From the NCBI GenBank assembly GCA_025352565.1, contig JANXTF010000065.1, forward strand, positions 1 through 64,000: 64,000 bases of DNA. The letters run 5' to 3'. Shown one piece after another: positions 23,509 through 60,793 of this stretch. Made by a program: the position numbers and the translations under genes. The notes beneath the pieces are model-generated. The model was not told the origin of the DNA and made no database searches. It was given only the letters and a program-made list of their open reading frames with translations. The stretch comes from Rhodospirillales bacterium. GTDB taxonomy: Bacteria > Pseudomonadota > Alphaproteobacteria > Acetobacterales > Acetobacteraceae. Each line of letters opens with the position of its first letter. Within the stretch, counting starts at the first letter, position 1.

Positions 23509-23517
23509 TGTGGATAA
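23509..23517 (-). promoter_or_regulatory. Perfect DnaA box upstream of uvrC
   Basis: TGTGGATAA, the exact complement of TTATCCACA, lies 25 bases before the chosen uvrC start, in an otherwise AT-richer stretch (23570-23680 also low GC, with TTTGCC/GGCAAA arms at 23577-23597). It could let DnaA regulate uvrC, or be chance; a 9-mer match on its own is weak evidence. Confidence 0.45.
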
Positions 23518-23686
23518 GTTTGTGGGAAACTCCCGGATACGACCCGCCGAAGCCCGGCTTTCCGCCATTTCCCGTGTTTGCCCAAGTTTTTGGCAAAAGA
23601 GCCAACTTACTGATTTCGCTCATTTCCCACATTAACCTTCGGTCATACACTGAAGTAAATCTGTTATGTGCCTGTAATCCAAGGGG

Positions 23687-51571: not shown

Positions 51572-52648
51572 GTGAAGCTTCCGTTCGTCGCCCTCGCCGG
51601 GCTGCTCGCCCTTGCCGCCTGCGCGTCGCCGCGGCCGACCCCGTCGGCGGATAACAAAATCCACGACATGGAGTTGCAGCCGGTCGGGTTCGCGCGTCTT
51701 CCGGGCTGGCAGGCCGATAATCTGGCCGAGGCGCTGCCCGCCTTCCGCGCCAGCTGCGGCCGCATCAAGGGGGACGCCGTGGCTTGGCGGCCGGCCTGCG
51801 CCGCCGCCCGCCAGACGCCCGATGGCGACGAGGCGGCCGCCCGCCGTTTCTTCGAGGCCAATTTCCAGCCTTACGCGATGACCGACAACGGCAACACGAC
51901 CGGCCTGTTCACCGGCTATTACGAGCCCGAGGTCGCCGGATCCCGCACCCGCGCGCCGGGCTACGACACGCCGCTTTATGCCAAGCCGCCCGGTGTCGGA
52001 ACCATGCCCGATCGCGCGGCGATCGATCGCGGGGCGCTGGCCGGGCGCCGTCTGGAGCGGTTCTGGCTGGCCGACCCGGTGGATGCCTTTTTTCTCGAAA
52101 TCCAGGGCTCCGGCCGCGTCCGCCTGCCCGACGGCAGCATCGCCCGCGTCACCTATGCCGGCCAGAACGGCCGCGGCTATGTCCCGATTGGTCGCGTGCT
52201 GATCGACCGCGGCGAGCTGACCCGCGAGGAAACCTCGCTGCAGACCATCCGCGCCTGGCTTGTGGCCCACCCCGCCCAGGCGCGCGAGGTGATGGAGAAG
52301 AACCCGTCTTATGTCTTCTTCCGCGAGATGGCGCCGATCTCCAACGATCTCGGGCCGCCCGGCGCGATAGAGGTGGCGCTCACGCCCGGCCGTTCCATCG
52401 CGGTCGATCGCAGCTTCATCACGCTCGGCACCCCTGTCTGGATCGACACCACCAACGCCATCAACGGCCTGGCCATCCAGCGCCTGATGGTGGCGCAGGA
52501 CACCGGCGGCGCGATCAAGGGTCCGGTGCGGGCCGACCTGTTCATCGGCTGGGGACCGGAGGCCGCCGAACTGGCCGGACGGATGAAGCAGCCGGGCACG
52601 CAGTTCCTGCTGCTCCCGCGCGGGGCAAGACCGCCATCCACGAGCTAG
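51572..52648 (+). CDS. mltA: Membrane-bound lytic murein transglycosylase A
   Basis: A lipoprotein that cleaves peptidoglycan glycan strands to 1,6-anhydro products. From the GTG at 51572 the protein starts VKLPFVALAGLLALAACASP with a lipobox LAAC, placing Cys at the mature end. Motifs: LFTGYYEPEVAGSRT, FFLEIQGSGRVRL and QDTGGAIKGPVRADLF with the catalytic Asp, then GWGPEAAELAGRMKQPG. 358 residues is the family length. The next gene's reading frame runs through its 3' end. Confidence 0.93.
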   Translation: MKLPFVALAGLLALAACASPRPTPSADNKIHDMELQPVGFARLPGWQADNLAEALPAFRASCGRIKGDAVAWRPACAAARQTPDGDEAAARRFFEANFQPYAMTDNGNTTGLFTGYYEPEVAGSRTRAPGYDTPLYAKPPGVGTMPDRAAIDRGALAGRRLERFWLADPVDAFFLEIQGSGRVRLPDGSIARVTYAGQNGRGYVPIGRVLIDRGELTREETSLQTIRAWLVAHPAQAREVMEKNPSYVFFREMAPISNDLGPPGAIEVALTPGRSIAVDRSFITLGTPVWIDTTNAINGLAIQRLMVAQDTGGAIKGPVRADLFIGWGPEAAELAGRMKQPGTQFLLLPRGARPPSTS

Positions 52649-52668
52649 AGCACGGCGCGCGGCAGCGC

Positions 52669-53436
52669 CTGCTGACCGGGGATTGCCTCGAACTGATCCC
52701 GACCCTGGGCGCAGGCACCGTCGATGTGGTGGTGACGTCGCCGCCGTACAATCTCGATCTCGGCTACAGCGCCTATCGGGACCGGCTGCCGGAGCAGGCC
52801 TATCTCGACTGGCTGGTCGCGGTGGCCACCGCCCTGCGGCAGGTGCTCAAGCCGGGCGGCTCGGTGTTCCTCAACATCTCCGGCTCCTCCAGCAGGCCCT
52901 GGCTGCCCTTCGAGCTGGTCGTGCGGCTGCGGCCTTTATTCGTGCTGCAGAACCATATCGCCTGGATCAAATCGATCGCGACGCCGGGCGATTCCATCGG
53001 CCATCACAAGCCGGTCGGCGGCGCGCGCTTCCTGAACCACGCGCACGAGCACATGTTCCACCTCACGCTCACCGGCGCGGTGAAGCTGGATCGCCTCGCG
53101 ATCGGCGTGCCGTTCAAGGACAAGTCCAACATCGCCCGGCGCGGCCATGCGCGCGATGCGAGATGCCGGGGCAACACCTGGTTCATCCCGTACGACACCG
53201 TCCAGAGCCGCGCGCAGAAATTCCACCATCCCGGCACGTTTCCGGTCGATCTGCCCCGCTGGTGCATCCGGCTGCATGGCCAGCCGGATGCGCTGGTGCT
53301 GGACCCGTTCGTCGGAACCGGCACCACGCTGGTGGCGGCCCATCACGAGGCCGCCAGGGGTATCGGCATCGACATGGACCCGGCGTATATCGCCATCGCG
53401 CGCGAGCGCCTCGCCGCCGTAGGATGCGCCGCATGA
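52669..53436 (+). CDS. DNA methyltransferase (beta-class) without normal start
   Basis: A SAM-dependent DNA methylase of about 255 residues. The catalytic motif TSPPYNLDLGY comes early (23-28) and the SAM motif VLDPFVGTGTTLVAA late (about 212), the beta-class order of N4-cytosine/N6-adenine enzymes. The frame is open, but I find no in-frame ATG, GTG or TTG between 52381 and 52725; conserved LLTGDCLELIPTL needs a start before 52669, where CTG is the first near-cognate codon. A frameshift at the end of mltA is another explanation. No restriction enzyme gene is near. Its stop overlaps lutA (ATGA). Confidence 0.85.
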   Translation: MLTGDCLELIPTLGAGTVDVVVTSPPYNLDLGYSAYRDRLPEQAYLDWLVAVATALRQVLKPGGSVFLNISGSSSRPWLPFELVVRLRPLFVLQNHIAWIKSIATPGDSIGHHKPVGGARFLNHAHEHMFHLTLTGAVKLDRLAIGVPFKDKSNIARRGHARDARCRGNTWFIPYDTVQSRAQKFHHPGTFPVDLPRWCIRLHGQPDALVLDPFVGTGTTLVAAHHEAARGIGIDMDPAYIAIARERLAAVGCAA

Positions 53437-58010: not shown

Positions 58011-58604
58011 CTACGCCACGATTGCCCCCGTCTGGCGCAAGAACCCCAGCAGCGGCAGCAGCGGCAGCCCCAACACCGAGCTATGGTCGCCCGCCACCGT
58101 GTCGAACAACTGCACCCCCAGTCCCTCGAGCCGGTAAGCGCCGACGCTCGACAGCAATGCGTGGCCTTCCCGCGCCAAATAATCGTCGAGAAACCCATCC
58201 GAGAACGCCCGCATGGTCAGGCGCGGCCGGGCGATATGGGTCCAGAGACGATCGCCGCCGCGCTGGCACAGCACCGCCGTCACCAGCATGTGCGTCCGCC
58301 CTCGGAGCGCCAGCAGATGCGACCTCGCCTCGGCCATAGTCGCCGGTTTGTCGAACCAACGCTCCTCGCATACCAGCAATTGATCCGCGCCGATCACGAT
58401 GGCGTCCGGCACCGCCCGTGCCACCCGCATCGCCTTCATCTCGGCCAGAAGCACCGCCGTGTCATCGGCCGAGACACCCTCCGCCCGCGCCCCGCGTTTA
58501 ACCGCGCCTTCGTCGATCGCGGCGGGCCGCACCTCGAAATCGAGCCCGGCTGCCGCCAGCAGCGCCCGACGGGTGGCCGAACCGCTCGCCAACACCAGCT
58601 TCAC
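58011..58604 (-). CDS. Maf-like nucleotide pyrophosphatase, second copy
   Basis: A 197-residue Maf-family protein: [40 protein letters not shown] and [21 protein letters not shown]. In the first motif Ser-Ala-Thr replaces the usual Ser-Pro-x, and Y-x-L-E-G replaces YxIQG, features of the YceF (m7GTP) branch and its relatives. It starts with GTG overlapping the ppsR stop (GTGA). A Maf gene next to ppsR beside the origin is the arrangement in Caulobacter. The first copy lies behind infA. Confidence 0.92.
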
Positions 58605-59464
58605 AAGGACGCCGTTGCCTCCTTGCGGCGCCGTTCGTGCCAAGATTCCATCAACTGCAGCACGGTCGCCGCCGTCTCCTCGATCGAACGGCGCGTCACG
58701 TCGATCACCGGCCAGCCACGCCGCGTGCATAGTCGCCGTGCCCATAGCAGTTCGGCCTTCACCGCCTCCTGATCGACATAGTCGCCGGTATCCTGGCGCA
58801 CGGCACCCGTATTGGCGCCCGTGCCGATCATGCGGAGCCGATGACGGCGGATTTCGATGAGGGCGTCCGCATCGAGCGTCAGGCCGACCACCGGACAGAC
58901 GGGATTTTCCAGACCGGGTGCGTCCATCAGGCCGGGCACCAGCGGCACGTTCGCCGCCTTCACGCCGCGGTTGGCCAGATAGAACGAAGTGGGGGTTTTC
59001 GAGCTTCGCGACACGCCCACCAGGCACACATCGGCCTCGGCGATCCCCGCCTGGGCCTGCCCGTCATCATGCGCGAGCACGAAATGCATCGCGTCGATGC
59101 GGCGGAAGTAATCCGCGTCCAGCACGTATTGCCGTCCCGGCCGGGACGCCGCCTGTTCGCCAAGTTGGTCCTGGAACATCGCCATCACCGGATCGAGCAC
59201 GTTCACCAATTGCAGACCCAGCCGCTCGCAGGTGGTTGTCATTTCCGCCCGCAGCCCCTTCTCGATCACGGTGGACAGCACCGGCCCCGGCTCGGCTTCG
59301 ATGCCCTCCAACACGCGGTGCAACTGAAAGCGGGTCCGGATCAGGCTCCAGCGATGATAGACGATGCTTGCGCGCTCGAACTGCGACACCGTCGCGCGGG
59401 TGATCGAATTGAGGGTTTCGCCCGTGGAATCGGACACCAGATGCAGGTTGATGCGATCGGTCAT
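58601..59464 (-). CDS. ppsR: PEP synthase / PPDK regulatory protein (DUF299)
   Basis: A 287-residue bifunctional kinase/phosphorylase that switches pyruvate, water dikinase or pyruvate, phosphate dikinase on and off by phosphorylating a Thr. Signature features: [20 protein letters not shown] at the N-terminus, P-loop [19 protein letters not shown] (core 150-157), and [17 protein letters not shown]. It is divergent from hemE across the candidate origin and precedes maf. Which dikinase is the target cannot be said. Confidence 0.95.
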
Positions 59465-59588
59465 GCGCCTGAGGATAGCGGGGATAAGTCGTGCCGCCAG
59501 TGTTTGTTGAAGTTCGGTGGCGAATCACGGGGATGCTTTGTCACATCCGGCCAGGTCCGCCGCCACGATCATTCACGGAATCGAGAGG

Positions 59589-59597
59589 TGGGGATAA
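59589..59597 (-). promoter_or_regulatory. DnaA-box-like site, 8/9 match
   Basis: TGGGGATAA differs at one position from TGTGGATAA, the complement of the TTATCCACA box. It lies 89 bases from the perfect box, in the opposite orientation. Confidence 0.45.
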
Positions 59598-59685
59598 CCG
59601 GCAAACGCGCGTCCGCTCCGTCACTTGCCGCGATCGGCTAATGTGGACAGATTGCCGTGCGAATCCGAGAGGCCGGGGTACCCCG

Positions 59686-59694
59686 TTATCCACA
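59686..59694 (+). promoter_or_regulatory. Perfect DnaA box beside hemE
   Basis: TTATCCACA, the exact consensus. It is followed at once by an AT-rich stretch with runs of T, a pattern seen at the unwinding side of bacterial origins. Read with the other matches in this gap, it supports oriC. Confidence 0.65.
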
Positions 59695-59764
59695 GGGTTC
59701 CTCTACCCCTCCATAAGTTCTTTTAAGATTCTTTCTTTTGGAAGATGAAGGCGACAGGTCTGGG

Positions 59765-60793
59765 ATGGCGACGACCAAGCGGTTGCTCCGCGTGCTGGCA
59801 GGCGAAGCATCCTGGCCCCCGCCGATCTGGCTGATGCGTCAGGCGGGGCGGTTCCTGCCCGAATACCGTGCCGTTCGGGCCAAGGCCGGGGACTTCATGT
59901 CGCTGGTCACCAACCCGGAGATGGCGGCCGAAGTCACTTTGCAGCCGGTACGCCGGTTCGGCATGGATGCGGCGATCATCTTCAGCGACATTCTCGTGCT
60001 GCCCTGGGCGCTTGGGCAGGGCCTGAAGTTCGAGGCGGGCGAGGGACCGGTGCTGCCGCCGATCCGCGACCGCGCCGGCATCGAGGCGCTCGACCCGACC
60101 CAGCTCGCCGGCCGCGTGGCACCGATCCAGGAGAGTCTGCGCCGGGTAAAGTGCGAGGTGGGGGATGCGGCGCTGATCGGCTTTGCCGGCGCACCGTTCA
60201 CCGTCGCGTGCTACATGGTCGAAGGCGGCGGTTCGAAGGATTTTTCCGCAACGCGGGCGATGGCCCATGGCGACCCGGCGATGTTCGGCGCGCTGCTTCA
60301 CATCATCGAGGCGGCGACCGTGGAGTTCCTGTCCGCCCAGATCGAGGCGGGGGCCGAAGTCGCGATGCTGTTCGACAGCTGGGCCGGCATTCTTTCGCCC
60401 CGGCTGTTCCAGCGCCATGTCACCGAACCCACCGGCCGGATAGCCGCCGCCTTGCGTGCCCGCCATCCGGAAATTCCGGTCATCGGCTTCCCGCGCCTCG
60501 CTGGCACCATGATCGGTGACTACGCCCGGAAGGCCGGAGTGCAGGCTGTCGCGATGGACACCGCTGCCGACCCGCGCGTGGTCCGCACGCTGGTGCCTGA
60601 CCATCTGGCGTTGCAGGGCAATCTCGATCCTCTCGCCGTGGTCGCCGGTGGGCAGACCATGCGCGAGGAGACGGCGGGATTGCTCGACGCCATGCGCGGC
60701 CGCCCGTTCGTGTTTAATCTGGGCCATGGCATCGTGCCCCAGACGCCGCCCGGGCATGTGGCCGAACTGGTGGCCCAGGTCCGCGCGGCATGA
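59765..60793 (+). CDS. hemE: Uroporphyrinogen decarboxylase
   Basis: Removes four carboxyl groups from uroporphyrinogen III in haem synthesis. The 342-residue product has PPIWLMRQAGRFLPEYRAVR, the family N-terminal signature with the active-site Arg, FSDILVLPWALGQGL with the catalytic Asp region, GFAGAPFTVACYMVEGGGSK and MLFDSWAGILSP. ATG 59765 gives the normal start; a TTG at 59738 would add nine residues. Its stop overlaps hemH (ATGA). Confidence 0.97.
   Translation: MATTKRLLRVLAGEASWPPPIWLMRQAGRFLPEYRAVRAKAGDFMSLVTNPEMAAEVTLQPVRRFGMDAAIIFSDILVLPWALGQGLKFEAGEGPVLPPIRDRAGIEALDPTQLAGRVAPIQESLRRVKCEVGDAALIGFAGAPFTVACYMVEGGGSKDFSATRAMAHGDPAMFGALLHIIEAATVEFLSAQIEAGAEVAMLFDSWAGILSPRLFQRHVTEPTGRIAAALRARHPEIPVIGFPRLAGTMIGDYARKAGVQAVAMDTAADPRVVRTLVPDHLALQGNLDPLAVVAGGQTMREETAGLLDAMRGRPFVFNLGHGIVPQTPPGHVAELVAQVRAA

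Follow-up and report, generated by a model that had tools for sequence, protein, structure and literature searches.

The closest described counterparts of the locus analysed here are Cori of Caulobacter crescentus and the origin of Rickettsia prowazekii which, in the accounts available, share its flanking genes, hemE and a member of the COG1806/DUF299 family, its DnaA boxes and its AT-rich tract. The host of our sequence appears to be a member of the Acetobacteraceae, and the RAMA domain found in its CcrM-type protein also occurs in the Caulobacter control. The two origins are nonetheless different in several respects. Cori has CtrA sites, whereas the locus presented here has none; Cori is described with weaker G- and W-boxes, whereas a perfect consensus box is found here; and the core of the present locus carries a GTAC that the available descriptions of Cori do not mention.

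Origins can also be marked by methylation, as with Dam and GATC in E. coli or CcrM and GANTC in Caulobacter. The family origins resemble these in the strong enrichment of a short palindrome (GTAC, in 21 GTAC-rich relatives). In the known systems the site is methylated; for GTAC there is a candidate enzyme, for which independent contrasts gave no support. A third point of comparison is the DnaA-box plus DnaA-trio unwinding system, or BUS (PMC8287927, PMC6669920), whose published rule (PMC8287927) asks for at least three 3′-NAN-5′ trios no more than 16 bp from a DnaA box. As in the BUS, the box of the family origins is oriented toward a CTAC-enriched, T-rich tract. A strict search for trios in our sequence, however, gave none within 16 bp of the box, a run of three beginning 22 bp away, and only 8 of 86 family origins have the required arrangement, below the shuffle mean of 22.3. 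Strict BUS membership is accordingly rejected, and we regard the tract as a likely unwinding element that is not classed as a BUS.

Taking together sequence features, conservation, gene context and the GC skew of relatives, we conclude that the intergenic region between ppsR and hemE is very probably (roughly 92%) the chromosomal origin, oriC, of an Acetobacteraceae-type alphaproteobacterium. It would be a known kind of origin in its expected place, familiar from distant relatives, and well supported as such, while the GTAC-DnaA box composite inside it appears to be undescribed in the literature searched. This would locate the origin for a large family from which two Acetobacter genomes have been published with oriC next to dnaA, a gene found on the terminus side in one closed relative.

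Boxes and composition of the ppsR-hemE gap

The window, i.e. the whole stretch of 64,000 bp that was analysed, consists of bases 1-64000 of a 70,616-bp contig (C147) in a draft genome of 4.50 Mb and 164 contigs. The PpsR of the nearest named record found, a Rhodospirillales MAG, is 95% identical to ours, and that of another, named Acetobacteraceae, is 77% identical. The first-pass annotation had proposed an origin in a 300-base divergent gap, and exactly 300 bp indeed separate the ATG of ppsR from the ATG of hemE. The perfect DnaA box, the 8/9 box and the stretch of about 70% AT past the perfect box were all found where that annotation had put them (Table 1). Two 7/9 boxes had also been claimed; such boxes exist, but they are three in number, all on the minus strand. 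Pfam searches confirmed each of the neighbours maf, hemH, hemJ (UPF0093) and rho.

Table 1. Coordinates of the proposed origin, its elements and related features in the window
Feature	Position	Strand	Remark
Proposed oriC, ppsR-hemE intergenic region	59465..59764		boxes beyond chance; layout conserved in relatives
ppsR (Kinase-PPPase; known as DUF299/COG1806 in the Cori literature), left flank	58601..59464	-	PF03618, E 9.3e-83
hemE, right flank	59765..60793	+	PF01208; reading frame checked
Origin core GTACCCCG-TTATCCACA-GG (GTAC plus perfect DnaA box)	59678..59696	+	family pattern search
Perfect DnaA box TTATCCACA	59686..59694	+	
8/9 DnaA box (TGGGGATAA on +)	59589..59597	-	
7/9 DnaA box (TGTGGACAG on +), lying 39 bp ahead of the core's CCCC	59642..59650	-	
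Two 7/9 DnaA boxes near ppsR	59470-59478, 59479-59487	-	
GAGGATAGCGGGGATAA module adjoining ppsR, overlapping two weak 7/9 DnaA-like boxes	59471..59487		block conserved in 26-gap alignment
Probable unwinding element: tract rich in AT (70%) and in T	59709..59748		composition
CTAC, complement of one DnaA-trio-like unit	59703..59706	+	CTAC enriched after core in 86 origins
Four GANTC sites, candidate CcrM targets	59522, 59578, 59661, 59727 (span 59522..59731)		
IHF-like match WATCAN5WTR	59523..59535	+	weak consensus
PF01555 DNA methyltransferase reading frame, start provisional	52600..53436	+	candidate GTAC partner

The gap has three features of a hemE-type oriC: it lies between hemE and the DUF299/COG1806 gene, its AT content exceeds that of its surroundings (57.3% vs. 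68.8% GC, respectively, in the gap and the window), and its DnaA boxes cluster beyond chance. The weighted box score of 7.5 was reached by none of 2000 first-order shuffles of the gap (shuffle mean 0.34), and the 15 best-scoring windows of 300 bp, moved in 10-bp steps over the whole 64 kb, all overlap the gap. Exact TTATCCACA occurs five times in the whole 4.5-Mb draft, twice of these in the window (at 23509 and 59686); the copy at 23509-23517 precedes the start of uvrC by about 25 bp and adjoins AT-rich DNA ahead of folB.

The gap contains no CtrA-like sites, either as TTAA-N7-TTAA or in the loose form TTWW-N7-TTWW. One of the five matches to the weak IHF-like consensus seen on both strands of the whole window lies in the gap, where a stricter IHF form had no match. 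Beyond the window, on the same contig (L036 712-1467), what looks by eye like a transposase lies directly after rho, followed by other genes, so that mnmE, mnmG and parAB were not seen adjoining rho on this contig. This gene may be the trace of a rearrangement in the neighborhood that such origins usually have.

Conservation of the core and its place on the chromosome

A ppsR gene was found in 40 of 60 genomes searched, and hemE was its divergent neighbor in 27 of the 30 loci read (our genome included in both counts); the exceptions were one locus cut by a contig end (L015) and two with another neighbor (L032, L034). The 26 ppsR-hemE gaps that were aligned share a GAGGATAgCGGGGATAA block adjoining ppsR, weak boxes of the GGGGATAA type, a minus-strand TGTGGA box, the core CCCCGTTATCCACAGG and the T-rich tract.

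We extended this comparison to 95 sequences upstream of hemE, including 60 of the 84 new genomes in a 120-genome family sample; the other 24 were left out, some for contig ends or low completeness. A clear core, defined by a matrix score of at least 11 plus judgement by eye, was present in 86 of the 95, with G004, G029, G032, G033, G075, G081, G123, G141 and G142 set aside. The matrix had been built from 24 of these sequences. Among the 60 new ones, none of which had gone into it, 56 scored at least 11 and 37 at least 20, compared to 9 and 0, respectively, of 300 shuffles. On the opposite strand of the 60, 33 reached 11 and 3 reached 20. The cut-off of 11 is therefore lenient, although matches on the opposite strand are partly expected because the region also has minus-strand boxes. 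In 58 of 86 origins a TGTGGA is found no more than 80 bp before the core (16 of 77 in a control stretch), with 47 placements at -38 to -40 from the core (-39 in the window) and a second group at -27/-28. The boxes, for which the first-pass annotation proposed a scan of related genomes, are thus conserved in relatives with the same gene order, and at preferred spacings.

The core also persists in 19 of the 24 family genomes that lack a ppsR match beside hemE, namely 7 of 9 in the earlier set (not in G029 or G032) and 12 of 15 among the new ones (not in G081, G123 or G141), and is therefore not simply a ppsR promoter. No core was found upstream of hemE in G032 and G141, two small genomes of one genus that both have the methyltransferase described below; here either the origin or hemE has probably moved. 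The core upstream of hemE was doubtful in G029, G075, G081 and G123. Among five class-level genomes without ppsR beside hemE, box clusters were seen in G040 and G055, and no box was found upstream of hemE in G039, G045 and G057.

In our own genome, parB and dnaA are on contigs other than that of hemE. Distances were measured in 12 genomes, ours included, most of them chosen for long contigs (those of G029, G044 and G047 being taken as circular for the dnaA distances). In each of the other 11, the best-scoring ParB was on the hemE contig, at a distance of 3.5-103 kb. In the eight genomes with dnaA on the hemE contig, dnaA was at least 546 kb away in six (546 kb in G011 and about 0.9-1.35 Mb in G029, G047, G022, G025 and G013), and 137 kb and 216 kb away, respectively, in G044 and G049. 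In these relatives ParB is thus near hemE, with dnaA usually far off. According to the available part of PMC8116508, parAB is mostly near the origin, with exceptions, and dnaA is not conserved near it in the Rhodospirillales; the separation of dnaA from the origin is therefore already known for the order.

GC skew, sampled in 20-kb stretches, gave a mixed picture. In the closed genome G013, it was negative in sampled stretches up to hemE at 611 kb, positive thereafter to about 1.9 Mb and, on the same contig (C1), negative again from the stretch with dnaA at about 1.96 Mb. In G025, by contrast, the cumulative minimum within 1.70-1.90 Mb was at 1.845 Mb, about 30 kb from the hemE start at 1.875 Mb. 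In G047, where the gap is at 2.209 Mb, a weak change of sign fell between 2.06 and 2.185 Mb, on a noisy background, and the signal in G011 was also weak, neither being decisive. On our own contig, the skew falls to about 60 kb and is then flat. On the skew minimum that the first-pass annotation expected at the gap, the relatives are thus divided: there is a clear switch at hemE in G013, an offset of about 30 kb in G025, and a weak signal in G047 and G011.

DnaA also regulates promoters, and the gap could be just a divergent ppsR/hemE promoter under DnaA control, with the origin elsewhere in the same region. This explanation is in line with the finding of the same composite before ribonucleotide reductase genes (three relatives) and before dnaB (one relative), and with the displaced skew minimum of G025. 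However, genomes that lack ppsR next to hemE still have the core, the spaced boxes and the T-rich tract, and the skew of G013 flips at the ppsR-hemE gap itself, which makes a promoter without an origin improbable. An origin adjoining dnaA has precedent in the two Acetobacter genomes for which PMC3751514 and PMC13209655, in the parts available, place oriC near dnaA, the latter at the skew maximum. Against this, dnaA of G013 is on the terminus side, half a chromosome from hemE and ParB, in the stretch in which the skew, positive until then, has become negative; the best-scoring ParB lies away from dnaA; and the dnaA-bearing contig of our own genome (C81) has no exact TTATCCACA. We consider this location very improbable. 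Least probable of all, to the point of being negligible, is an origin at the other perfect box of the window, upstream of uvrC: the box is exact, with AT-rich stretches at 23567 and 23629, but it is a single one, placed just before a gene start and outside the 15 best-scoring windows. Box statistics, conservation and ParB proximity in relatives, and the skew of G013 all support the ppsR-hemE gap as the origin region, as originally claimed.

The GTAC-DnaA box composite

The core of the window reads GTAC-CCCG-TTATCCACA-GG, with the GTAC directly preceding CCCG and the perfect box. GTAC occupies this place in 60 of the 86 clear origins, and does not in the other 26. The composite has a single match with up to three mismatches in our draft genome. 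With up to two mismatches, it gave 57 matches in 51 of the 120 family genomes (69 without a match), 42 of which are located 61-168 bp upstream of hemE. The remaining 15 equal the total of a reversed-pattern control (15, summed by eye), and are therefore, as a class, at chance level. Six of these 15 were read: three are upstream of ribonucleotide reductase, one is upstream of dnaB (L169, in G104), one belongs to an origin next to ppsR where a contig ends, and one (L170) looks intragenic by eye. The ribonucleotide reductase composites (L163, L165 and L171, respectively in G018, G127 and G033) have NrdR-box-like palindromes by eye.

GTAC is avoided across the window (0.94 vs. 2.87 expected per kb). 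In 21 relatives with at least four GTAC in the 420 bp before hemE, we counted 205 copies vs. 35.8 in shuffles; these relatives were chosen for their GTAC count, so only the size of the enrichment matters. The next palindrome in the same origins, CATG, was enriched 2.4-fold. G025 has 13 GTAC in 450 bp, where 0.3 would be expected from its sampled chromosome background of 0.63 per kb, and G013 has 8, with 0.6 expected from a background of 1.23 per kb. Nineteen of the 21 have 6-14 copies, fall in one clade of the HemE tree and lack a ppsR match beside hemE; the clade is probably that of the acetic acid bacteria. The two outside it, G017 (5 copies) and G124 (6 copies), both have ppsR. Many of the copies recur at set distances from the core: positions -20 and -43 are occupied in 19 of 21 origins, -113 in 17 and further positions in 11-12, frequently with DnaA-box-like letters alongside.

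No earlier description of a GTAC-DnaA box element was found in the open-licence PMC literature. A tentative possibility, which we hold to be rather less than even, is that the composite of the Acetobacteraceae is read by an undescribed factor, a GTAC-binding regulator or a GTAC methylase such as the one encoded in the window, through which DnaA would be gated at oriC as well as at a small number of promoters of replication genes (ribonucleotide reductase, dnaB), and that amplification of the composite to 6-14 copies in one clade makes it a counterpart of GATC/Dam-SeqA. The element makes a new origin-control factor directly testable.

A PF01555 methyltransferase of the N4-cytosine type is encoded within 7 kb of the proposed origin; no restriction gene was noticed next to it. 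In the PDB it matches M.PvuII and other N4-cytosine enzymes best, and CcrM less well. The enzyme is present in 56 of the 120 family genomes, including our own; G107, with a 31% match, is among the 56 but was scored as lacking it. Each of the 21 GTAC-rich origins comes from a genome with the enzyme. In the 95 sequences, 45 had both the enzyme and the core GTAC, 30 had neither, 17 had GTAC only and 3 had the enzyme only. These counts are suggestive of a link. On a HemE tree made by a quick method, with 27 of 92 inner branches well supported, the core GTAC changes 6 times and the methyltransferase 15 times. These changes and the contrasts on the tree refer to 90 rows, without G029, G032, G081, G123 and G141. 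In 8 supported pairs differing in the enzyme, GTAC was the same in 6.3 on average, and the independent contrasts (3 supported independent pairs) were not significant. One of the 17 genomes that keep the core GTAC without the enzyme, G086, has 4 contigs and is listed as 100% complete. Given the tree contrasts and these 17 genomes, we do not claim a link between GTAC and the methylase.

Proposed working of the origin

DnaA would load at the perfect core box and at the weaker boxes to its left, above all the one on the minus strand 39 bp before the core, and the DnaA filament would then grow rightward into the CTAC/T-rich tract before hemE. The T-rich tract would melt and take the helicase. Over the 86 origins, the tract after the core has a mean of 62% AT vs. 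40% in the 200 bp before the core, and CTAC occurs 55 times in the 25 bases after the core vs. 21.7 expected; the tract also shows a weak periodicity of three bases. The conserved GTAC that adjoins the core box would probably serve a separate factor as a second recognition site, at which this factor modulates DnaA.

The GANTC sites would probably give the origin CcrM-dependent timing. Their number in the gap of the window, taken alone, is not significant (161 of 2000 shuffles reach four sites). Over the 86 origins, 213 were counted vs. 124.7 (sd 11.1) in shuffles, with at least one site in 75 of the 86, and proteins with a CcrM-type RAMA domain were found in 19 of 20 genomes checked, our own included (the exception being G033). 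The enrichment and the RAMA proteins together make CcrM timing plausible. The ppsR-hemE gap of one relative (L025, in G004) is 632 bp long and holds 13 GANTC, the other gaps listed having at most 7.
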